Below, piece after piece: positions 16,051-39,900 of a stretch of DNA of 44,415 nucleotides. The first letter of the stretch is position 1, and each line of letters starts with the position of its first letter. The stretch is from assembly GCA_937873175.1 (NCBI GenBank), contig CALMVT010000153.1, positions 1-44,415 of the forward strand, given 5' to 3'. A program made the translations under genes and the position numbers. This DNA comes from an uncultured Acetobacteraceae bacterium (GTDB taxonomy: Bacteria > Pseudomonadota > Alphaproteobacteria > Acetobacterales > Acetobacteraceae). The notes below the pieces were generated by a model that saw only the letters and a program-made list of their open reading frames with translations, did no database searches and was not told the DNA's origin.

Positions 16051-16084
16051 AGCGGGTGGAAGCCAGGGTCGGTTTCCGCCCGCT
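16051..16084 (+). terminator. Second hairpin between rplL and rpoB
   Basis: AGCGGGTGGAA pairs with TTCCGCCCGCT (11 bp, one T-G pair) around a 12-nt loop, followed by ATTCTATTG, a modest T-rich tail. Together with the preceding hairpin it forms a tandem attenuator candidate before rpoB. A third weaker stem (CCCGATG/CATCGGG, 16151-16177) lies nearer to rpoB. Confidence 0.45.
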
Positions 16085-16206: not shown

Positions 16207-20379
<4,173 letters not shown>

Positions 20380-36828: not shown

Positions 36829-38172
36829 ATGGCCTCAGCGGCCGAGCAGCTTGCGGCAAACCTCAGTCTCGGCACGCTCGGCAAGGCCACCGAGCTCAAG
36901 TCGCGCATCTGGTTTACCCTGGGCGCCCTGTTGGTATACCGAATCGGCACTTACATCCCGGTGCCCGGCGTCGATGCCTCGGTGATGGGCGAACTGCTGG
37001 CGCAGCACGGCGGCGGCATTCTGGGCATGTTCGACATGTTCAGTGGCGGCGCGCTGGGCCGCATGACCGTGTTCGCCCTCAACATCATGCCCTACATCAG
37101 CGCCAGCATCATCATCCAGTTGATGTCGGCCGCGGTGCCGTCTCTGGAAACCCTCAAGAAAGAAGGGGAAAGCGGGCGCAAGAAGCTCAACCAATATACC
37201 CGCTACCTGACGGTGCTGATCGCCCTGGTGCAGTCCTACGGCATCGCGGTGGGGCTGGAAGGGATGCACGGCAACTTCGGCTCCGCGGTGATCGACCCGG
37301 GCCTGTTCTTCCGCCTGTCCTGCGTGATCACGCTGGTGGGCGGGACGATGTTCCTGATGTGGCTCGGCGAGCAGATCACGGCGCGCGGCGTCGGCAACGG
37401 CACCAGCCTGATCATCTTCGCCGGCATCGTCGCCAACCTGCCGCACGCCTTGGCGAACCTCTTGGAACTCGGGCGGACCGGCGCCCTGTCCCTGGTGTTC
37501 ATCCTGGCCTTTTTGGTGATCGCCGTCGCGGTGATCGCCTTTGTGGTGTTCATGGAGCGGGCGCAGCGCCGGGTGAACATCCAGTATCCGAAGCGCCAGG
37601 TCGGCCAGCGCATGTTCGGCGGTGACAGCACGCACATGCCGCTGAAGGTGAACACGGCCGGGGTGATCCCGCCGATTTTCGCCAGCTCCATCCTACTGAT
37701 CCCCGCGACCATCGCCGGGTTCTCGCAAAGCAATCCAAACTCCTGGCTCGCCTGGATCGGGCAGAAGCTGGGTCATGGCGAGCCGCTGTATATGCTCGCC
37801 TACGCCGGGATGATCATCTTCTTCTCGTATTTCTACACGGCGGTGGTGTTCAACCCGCAGGAAACCGCGGACAACCTGAAGAAGTATGGCGGGTTCATTC
37901 CGGGCGTGCGGCCCGGTGCCAATACCGCGGACTACTTCGACCGCATTCTTGCCCGGCTGACCACGGTGGGCGCGCTTTATTTGTGCCTCGTGTGCATGCT
38001 CCCCGAAATCCTCATCAGCCGCTACGGCGTGCCGTTCTACTTCGGGGGCACAAGCCTGATGATCATCGTGTCCGTGACCATGGACACGGTGACGCAGATC
38101 CAGTCGCACCTGCTGGCCCACCAATATGAGGGGTTGATACGCAAATCGCGGGTGAAGGGCCGCGCCCGATGA
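36829..38172 (+). CDS. secY: Protein translocase subunit SecY
   Basis: SecY (447 residues) is the channel subunit of the SecYEG translocon in the inner membrane, with ten predicted helices. Typical are [14 protein letters not shown] in helix 1, the plug region [26 protein letters not shown], and the cytoplasmic loop [23 protein letters not shown] that binds SecA and the ribosome. The ATG at 36829 follows AAGGGGGACGG. The stop overlaps adk by 4 bp (ATGA). Its partner gene secE is not in this window. Confidence 0.98.
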
Positions 38173-38843
38173 ACCTGATCCTGTTGGGGCCGCCCGGCGC
38201 GGGGAAAGGCACCCAGGCGAAGCGGCTGCAGCAAAAGCACGGCATCGCCCAGATCTCGACCGGCGACATGCTGCGCGCCGAGGTCAAGGCCGGCAGCGTG
38301 GTTGGGCAACGCGCCAAGGCGGTCATGGAGTCCGGGCAGCTTGTTTCGGACGACCTGATCATCGCCATGCTGGAGAAGCGCATCCAGCAGCCGGACGCGG
38401 CCTGCGGCTTCATCCTGGACGGCTTCCCGCGCACGGTGCCCCAAGCCGACGCGCTGGACCTGATGCTGGACCGCGCCGGCACGCCGATCGACGCGGTGAT
38501 CGAACTGAAGGTGGATGATGCCGCCTTGGTGGACCGGATTGCCGGGCGGTTCACCTGCGCGATCTGCGGCGCGGGCTACCACGACAATTTCCAGACGCCG
38601 CGCGTAGAGGGCACCTGCGACGTGTGCGGCGGCCACGAGTTCATCCGCCGGGCGGATGACCGGCGGGAAACCGTGGCGGCCCGGCTCGACGCCTATCATA
38701 CGCAAACCGCGCCAATCCTGCCGCACTACCGCAACACCGGCCGCCTGGTGACGCTGGACGGCATGGCGGACGTGGACACCGTGTCGCGGGAGATTGAGGC
38801 GGTATTGGCCCAAGTGCCGAAGCGGACTGTCACGATAAGTTGA
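38169..38843 (+). CDS. adk: Adenylate kinase with zinc-type LID domain
   Basis: Adenylate kinase (224 residues) converts ATP plus AMP to two ADP. The P-loop GPPGAGKGT is at 7-15. TGDMLRAEV binds AMP, and DGFPRT is the core motif. The LID domain holds four cysteines, C130, C133, C150 and C153 (CX2C-X16-CX2C), as in zinc-stabilised long adenylate kinases. The E. coli enzyme lacks them. ATG 38169 overlaps the secY stop; the secY-adk pairing is usual in alphaproteobacteria. A terminator-like structure follows. Confidence 0.98.
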
Positions 38844-38853
38844 TGTGAGCGCA

Positions 38854-38881
38854 TTGACTTGCGCTGATGCCTGCGTATATC
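38854..38881 (+). promoter_or_regulatory. Probable promoter of rpsM-rpsK-rpoA-rplQ
   Basis: TTGACT (38854-38859), 16 bp, then TATATC (38876-38881), ten bases after the adk stop. This is the best-looking promoter in the window. The -35 equals those before rplK and rpsL. The -10 overlaps the left arm of the following terminator-like hairpin. Confidence 0.65.
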
Positions 38882-38928
38882 ACCTGACCTTGCCTCGTGG
38901 CGCTTGCGCCGGGTGATTTCTATTTTTT
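38879..38928 (+). terminator. Terminator after adk, overlapping the rpsM promoter
   Basis: The outer stem ATCACC (38879-38884) pairs with GGTGAT (38912-38917). Inside is GGCG-CTTG-CGCC, a hairpin with a CUUG tetraloop (38899-38910). The tail TTTCTATTTTTT (38917-38928) is the strongest T-run seen in the ribosomal block. It would end transcripts coming from secY-adk. A transcript starting from the rpsM promoter lacks the left outer arm, so it could escape. Confidence 0.6.
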
Positions 38929-39012
38929 GGGCTTCCAGCGCGAAAGCGAGCAGGGCCTATCAAGGATCTTAGCCCCCTGTGCCGGGCGGCGAGATGGTGA
39001 GGAGTTATTGGC

Positions 39013-39390
39013 TTGGCCCGTATTGCCGGTGTGAACATCCCGACCAACAAGCGCGTGCTGATCAGCCTACGCTACATCTATGGTATTGGCCCGTCCAACG
39101 CCGTCGATATCTGCAAGAAGCTGGAAATTCCCGATGACCGCCGGGTCAACCAGTTGTCCGACGACGAGGTGCTGCGCATCCGCGAGCTGATCGACCGCGA
39201 TTACCGCGTCGAGGGCGACCTGCGGCGCGAGGTGGCGATGAACATCAAGCGGCTGATGGACCTCGGGTGCTACCGCGGCCTGCGGCACCGCCGTGGCCTT
39301 CCCGTGCACGGGCAGCGCACCCACACCAACGCCCGGACCCGCAAGGGCAAGGCCGTGGCCATCGCCGGCAAGAAGAAAGTCACCAAGTAG
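39013..39390 (+). CDS. rpsM: 30S ribosomal protein S13
   Basis: S13 (125 residues) makes head-to-50S bridges and touches P-site tRNA. The family N-terminus [26 protein letters not shown] begins at a TTG codon, with GAGGAG 8 nt upstream; no in-frame ATG fits. The C-terminal [22 protein letters not shown] is complete. It is the first gene of the alpha operon. Confidence 0.97.
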
Positions 39391-39863: not shown

Positions 39864-39900
39864 GCGGCGCCACCGTTGGGTGGCGTCGCTTGTTCTGTTT
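39864..39900 (+). terminator. Hairpin with T-rich tail between rpsK and rpoA
   Basis: An 11-bp stem, GCGGCGCCACC / GGTGGCGTCGC (one G-T pair), with loop GTTG, followed by TTGTTCTGTTT. It looks like an intrinsic terminator but lies inside the operon, 20 bp after rpsK. It may act as an attenuator that lowers rpoA relative to the ribosomal proteins. Confidence 0.55.

Follow-up and report, generated by a model that had tools for sequence, protein, structure and literature searches.

A probable composite regulatory region upstream of the rpsM-rpsK-rpoA-rplQ operon in an uncultured Acetobacteraceae bacterium

Introduction

The leader of the alpha operon of Escherichia coli carries the S4 site described as Alpha_RBS (Rfam RF00140) and, like the region considered here, belongs to an operon starting with rpsM. 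Alphaproteobacterial housekeeping (RpoD-type) promoters combine a TTGAC -35 and a spacer of 16-17 nt with a TATA-type -10. In intrinsic (Rho-independent) terminators, a stem is directly followed by a U-run, and 5'-terminal stem-loops, such as that of ompA in E. coli, stabilise mRNA. The most abundant transcripts of Gluconobacter oxydans show the promoter motifs ttGnnn and Tatnnn in a description (Kranz et al. 2018, PMC5756330) whose main text does not contain the name rpsM. Passages of a second article (PMC2704228) hold nothing bearing on the adk-rpsM region, and open-licence literature yielded nothing on rpsM together with adk and a terminator, on terminator-promoter overlap, or on leader regulation.

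Here, we analyse the gap between adk and rpsM in an uncultured Acetobacteraceae bacterium with a genome of 6.4 Mb, whose genus is represented by four genomes. The window, that is, the whole stretch of DNA that was analysed, has 44,415 nt. An initial annotation, made from the sequence of the window, had proposed that one short sequence both terminates the spc transcript (secY-adk) and starts the alpha operon (rpsM-rpoA). The locus has the same promoter architecture as RpoD-type promoters and adds to it an operator-like site fixed 8 bp upstream of the -35 and a hairpin whose distance from the -10 is fixed.

Materials and Methods

The family set of 64 loci, in which related loci are not independent of each other and one species may appear twice, as a genome entry and as a named record, consists of all of L002-L041 and L112-L135. 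L002 is the window, L003 the nearest species, and L004 and L005 are the remaining two genomes of the genus; L001 is a duplicate of L002. The family counts do not include a further 70 loci (L042-L111) that were also retrieved. The placement of L032-L041 inside and of L042-L111 outside the family was made by record titles and rpsM identity.

Stems were counted as overlapping arms at a T-rich tail if they started in the -10 and ended at most 2 nt from a tail with at least 6 T in 9. The flank-swap and U-linker analyses used 58 of the 64 loci, with P1 of L002 and L003 set by hand as the inner hairpin and six loci dropped for a P1 weaker than -7. The survey of stem plus T-tract energies covered 57 of the 64 gaps (adk found, <450 nt). 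For one alignment, 25 rows were chosen by eye and used for that alignment only.

Results

The adk-rpsM gap

The genes secY, adk, rpsM, rpsK, rpoA, and rplQ were identified by NCBIfam. The gap between adk and rpsM spans 169 nt (38844-39012) and its features are collected in Table 1. The fold of 38840-38990 is ordinary (z 0.31), and a plasmid search with the gap as query gave no match. At the ribosome binding site of rpsM, AGGAGTTA is invariant in the four genus loci. Elsewhere in the window, a strong hairpin GCGGCGCCACCGTTGGGTGGCGTCGC followed by TTGTTCTGTT is found between rpsK and rpoA (39864-39889), and another strong hairpin (16052-16083, -25.4 kcal/mol) is followed by TATTCTATT, with a long ORF starting shortly after, at 16207.

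Table 1. Features of the adk-rpsM region, in coordinates of the window
Feature	Coordinates	Strand	Basis or remark
adk, adenylate kinase, the upstream gene with read-through at issue	38169..38843	+	NCBIfam NF001380, 286 bits (cut-off 251)
Operator-like motif TCACGATAAGTTGATG	38830..38845	+	exactly 8 bp upstream of the -35; family conservation
-35 element TTGACT	38854..38859	+	sequence; family-conserved
-10 element TATATC, predicted start near 38886-38888	38876..38881	+	element from sequence and family conservation; start predicted
Left outer arm AUCACCUG of the read-through hairpin, overlaps the -10	38879..38886	+	pairs with 38910-38917
P1, leader hairpin of the local RNA, with UUGCCU / GGGUGA flanking GGCG CUUG CGCC	38890..38916	+	-10.1 kcal/mol
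Right outer arm CGGGUGAU, common to the read-through hairpin and P1	38910..38917	+	not kept in 2/4 genus genomes
T-run TTTCTATTTTTT, U-rich linker between P1 and P2	38917..38928	+	sole stretch with 10 T in 12 nt in the window
Leader element P2, stem around invariant CAGCGC-N4-GCGAGCA	38926..38961	+	covarying pairs, five sequences
rpsM ribosome binding site AGGAG	39000..39004	+	sequence
rpsM, ribosomal protein S13, TTG start at 39013	39013..39390	+	NCBIfam TIGR03631, 177.7 bits (cut-off 130.45)

A conserved promoter in front of rpsM

That the alpha operon has a promoter of its own, as first proposed from the window, is borne out by comparison. TTGACT and TATATC are separated by 16 nt, as in a sigma70-type promoter, and the score of this promoter was equalled in 1/1000 shuffles of its own upstream sequence. 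A score of at least 16 was reached by 52 of the 64 family loci; among 640 shuffled upstream sequences, 1 did so. All 64 loci yielded a TTGAC -35, a count that is partly the result of selection because the search retains the top match sharing five or more of the six letters of TTGACT; the 16-nt spacer recurs in 52 loci and TATAGT in 38. The assignment to sigma70-type promoters follows from hexamers at a spacing of 15-18 nt that are conserved in orthologous position. These comparisons support an independent promoter of rpsM-rpoA, conserved in the Acetobacteraceae. A generic sigma70 scan found no promoter (0.8 expected); it needs a T at the last position of the -10, which is a C here.

Several family loci, including L007, L010, and L116, have a GC-rich stretch (GCGCGCC type) between the -10 and the predicted start. 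It is missing in L002, L003, and L005, and L004 has CCGCG. Such a stretch in this position is known from stringently controlled promoters.

An operator-like site upstream of the -35

The operator-like motif is centred near -51 from the predicted start and overlaps the 3' end of adk and its stop codon. Allowing at most three mismatches, TCACGANNANKTGATS occurs at a spacing of 8 in 36 of the 64 family loci from which the pattern was itself derived, at none of the other spacings from 0 to 39, and is missing in the remaining 28. Of these 36 sites, 20 are located within the gap and 14 overlap adk, and two belong to loci in which adk was not found; the position of the site, therefore, tracks the promoter and not adk.

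Genome-wide counts were made with a looser pattern on two samples (120 and 96 genomes) that share part of their content with the loci used to derive the motif. The site followed by 8 bp and TTGAC gave exactly one match in 48 of the 120 family genomes, and the reversed control gave none. Thirty of these 48 matches were fetched: 29 of them precede rpsM by 113-240 nt on its strand, and the remaining one is at a contig end without rpsM. In the class sample of 96 genomes, two of them from the family, the composite pattern matched only the genome of the window. In that genome, with at most three mismatches allowed, there was one match, which is exact (two for the reversed control). The site alone, searched in 16 genomes, gave eight exact matches, every one placed at rpsM by its coordinates, and with one mismatch 16 matches, four of them at rpsM and 12 elsewhere (one for the reversed control). 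TTGAC does not follow any of these 12 at the 8-bp spacing, and 11 of them lie inside open frames of at least 266 aa, which is a weak sign in GC-rich DNA. Thus, a wider operator regulon is not supported by the genomes searched. The possibility that the motif acts as an RNA hairpin was rejected, as the outer left position varies (A in 16/36) while the opposite T is kept (32/36). Conserved as it is at a fixed spacing from the promoter, TCACGATAAGTTGATG is a candidate for a dedicated operator of the rpsM promoter.

The overlapping outer arm and the T-run

The initial annotation placed a 6-bp left arm of a terminator hairpin across the -10. The overlap is found as described and the arm extends to eight pairs, including one G-U, with the right arm immediately 5' of TTCTATTTTTT. 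Read-through RNA from adk can, as was also suggested, form a hairpin before the T-run: it is predicted to fold to -14.7 kcal/mol, with its stem ending directly at the U-run, in the manner of intrinsic terminators. It departs from these in several respects: A-U and G-U pairs make up half of the outer stem, there is an interruption on the loop side, the arm falls inside a promoter, and the structure is kept in only two of the four genus genomes. When the gap was shuffled with its dinucleotides preserved, a stem plus T-tract of -14.7 kcal/mol or stronger arose in 35/1000 cases and a stretch with 10 T in 12 nt in 4/1000; the stretch at 38917 is the sole instance on either strand of the window. A stem overlapping the -10 that is this good has p = 0.05 (300 shuffles). 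Overall, the feature is genuine and exceeds chance to a moderate degree. A generic terminator scan gave five sites where 4.1 were expected in 6 kb.

The relatives divide. In the nearest species, the stem is longer (10 pairs, p = 0.003) and reaches -21.4 kcal/mol together with its T-tract. In L004 and L005, the right arm is not kept and the best stem plus T-tract amounts to just -0.4 and -3.1 kcal/mol. In an alignment of the genus, conservation covers the operator, the -35, and the first part of the -10, while the hairpin arms vary. Across the family, overlapping arms of at least eight pairs at a T-rich tail occur in two of the 64 loci (the window and the nearest species), compared with 6/3200 shuffled leaders; at least seven pairs are found in three (L011 added) against 13/3200 and at least six pairs in four (L039 added) against 29/3200. 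The resulting family excess is small, and the shuffle control on which it is based also breaks up the U-rich linker. Pairing between the flanks of P1 is no better for a locus's own flanks (-5.23 kcal/mol) than with right flanks swapped (-5.44 kcal/mol), 4119 of 5000 permutations being as good. On the flank-swap test and the locus counts, we rejected the overlapping arm as a family-wide device.

We read the overlapping arm as a lineage-specific addition, or as chance. The second of these, a chance pairing of the outer arm itself without any effect, is a distinct possibility although we lean against it; it would be compatible with the explanation that we prefer for the region as a whole. The marginal significance of the stem alone and the number of family loci with stems overlapping the -10 at p <= 0.05 (6/64, about three expected) are in its favour, while the rarity of the T-run and of stem plus T among shuffles, the presence in two species, and the excess of arms of at least six pairs at T-rich tails speak against it.

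Leader elements P1 and P2

The initial annotation further held that RNA started at the local promoter would lack the outer left arm (38879-38884), so that the spc transcript could be stopped and the alpha operon started independently. This discrimination is weakened because locally started RNA, too, can form a hairpin that ends at the T-run. The right arm has two partners, the second of which the initial annotation had overlooked, and a locally started RNA is, therefore, not free of hairpin: in RNA starting from about 38888, nt 38890-38895 pair with the right arm and form, together with the inner stem, P1 at -10.1 kcal/mol (an automatic search in the window favoured a different pairing at -10.3 kcal/mol).

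These observations bear on the model in which the hairpin is an intrinsic terminator of secY-adk with the -10 as its outer arm, read-through being stopped and the alpha operon starting independently. The eight-pair stem abutting the window's single 10-of-12 T stretch, the more stable fold of the read-through RNA relative to the local RNA, the longer stem in the nearest species, and the small family excess of such arms are in its favour. We, nevertheless, consider it unlikely: the structure is absent from the other two genus genomes, pairing of the flanks is not seen at the family level, the right arm has its alternative partner in the local RNA, and the stem of L002 and L003 shows no two-sided compensation because the arm differences sit on the left arm.

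P1 itself is shared more widely. Its start follows the -10 by 9 or 10 nt in 41/64 family loci, compared with 46/314 shuffled leaders and 30/177 upstream windows; this distance is fixed relative to the -10, the position of the start being a prediction. The median energy of P1 is -15.9 kcal/mol against -10.9 kcal/mol for shuffles and -13.6 kcal/mol for upstream windows, the excess over the latter being modest. The stem sequences differ from locus to locus. The 18 nt after P1 contain 33.8% T against 18.7% in the whole leader (58 loci). Because the family shares a P1 hairpin and a U-rich linker, the hairpin of the window is best regarded as a lineage form of the leader hairpin, and it looks mostly like a component of the rpsM operon mRNA and less like a terminator shared with adk. 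Lying a few nt from the predicted 5' end, P1 may resemble 5'-terminal stem-loops of the ompA kind. The L17 gene (rplQ) is the last gene of the operon in this genome, and the L17 transcript of G. oxydans is named among the abundant, long-lived ones in part of another report (PMC6191907).

P1 was rejected as a general terminator, since a tract of at least 6 T in 8 nt follows it within 30 nt in just 10 of 58 loci. As a side observation, the rpsM leader of L112 (minus strand of the locus) has a terminator-like hairpin AGCCC..GGGGCT followed by TTTTTT. That P1 and the U-run form an attenuator, stopping a share of the local RNA about 40 nt from its start, is very improbable: the local RNA does fold directly against the T-run, and some stem of -8 or stronger stands beside a T-tract in 9/57 family gaps, but the stem of P1 is weak and has G-U pairs, T-rich tails after P1 are as scarce as stated, and L004 and L005 have next to no stem with a T-tract.

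The stem of P2 follows the linker. In its outer part, five of seven pairs are changed on both sides among five sequences, a pattern matched by 0/500 shuffles for a structure that was drawn after seeing these five. The covariance model built from them finds just the four genus loci and L009 among 78 loci; in 40 genomes these five score 2.8e-9 or better and the next best 0.002, with weak matches in many genomes up to the limit of 0.5. P2 is possibly a protein-binding site. Membership in Alpha_RBS, the S4 site of E. coli, was rejected, with a weak match of 26.4 bits in the window and 28.1-29.9 in the three other genus loci compared with a gathering score of 38, and the best-matching part is the rpsM start region.

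Discussion

Taken together, we consider it probable that the gap serves the rpsM-rpsK-rpoA-rplQ operon as a composite regulatory region, and that the proposed terminator is the lineage form of P1. A sigma70-type promoter, recognised by its conservation, would start the operon near 38888. The operator-like site 8 bp upstream of the -35, likewise conserved, is probably bound by a protein that tunes this promoter. The new RNA would present, in order, a short unpaired end, P1, the U-rich linker, and, in the genus, P2, structures that are borne out by comparison of the loci. P1 most likely shapes the stability or the folding of the operon's own mRNA. In the lineage of the window, read-through RNA offers the 3' arm of P1 a second partner in the -10 region, and the linker has turned into an almost pure U-run. 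Some termination or pausing of read-through from adk may result from this arrangement, as a local extra that should hit the local RNA too. Weighing against this view of the region are the exceptional T-run, the longer stem of the nearest species, the slight excess of overlapping arms and of stems across the -10, the 9/57 gaps with a stem beside a T-tract, the weak P1 of the window and its different automatic pairing, the modest energy excess of P1 over upstream windows, and the 28 loci that lack the operator.

Of the proposal that one sequence serves as spc terminator and alpha promoter, the promoter part stands. An intrinsic terminator is possible in the lineage of the window and its nearest species. 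Terminator-promoter overlap as a general design is not supported, since two genus genomes have next to no stem with a T-tract and have not kept the right arm, and the loci's own flanks pair no better than swapped ones. If active, the overlap would show how the spc and alpha operons can, locally, be separated by a compact boundary, and it is of lesser importance than the operator.

One possibility, which we put forward tentatively and hold to fall somewhat short of likely, is that a dedicated DNA-binding protein of the Acetobacteraceae recognises TCACGANRANKTGATS 8 bp upstream of the -35, in an arrangement that occurs once per genome at the rpsM-rpsK-rpoA-rplQ promoter. Such a single-target switch would couple the supply of ribosomes with that of the RNA polymerase alpha subunit, with the leader hairpin and the U-rich linker acting downstream. 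Should the operator prove real, a single site per genome would govern the operon for S13, S11, L17, and RNA polymerase alpha, and growth control in acetic acid bacteria and their relatives could be approached cleanly through it.
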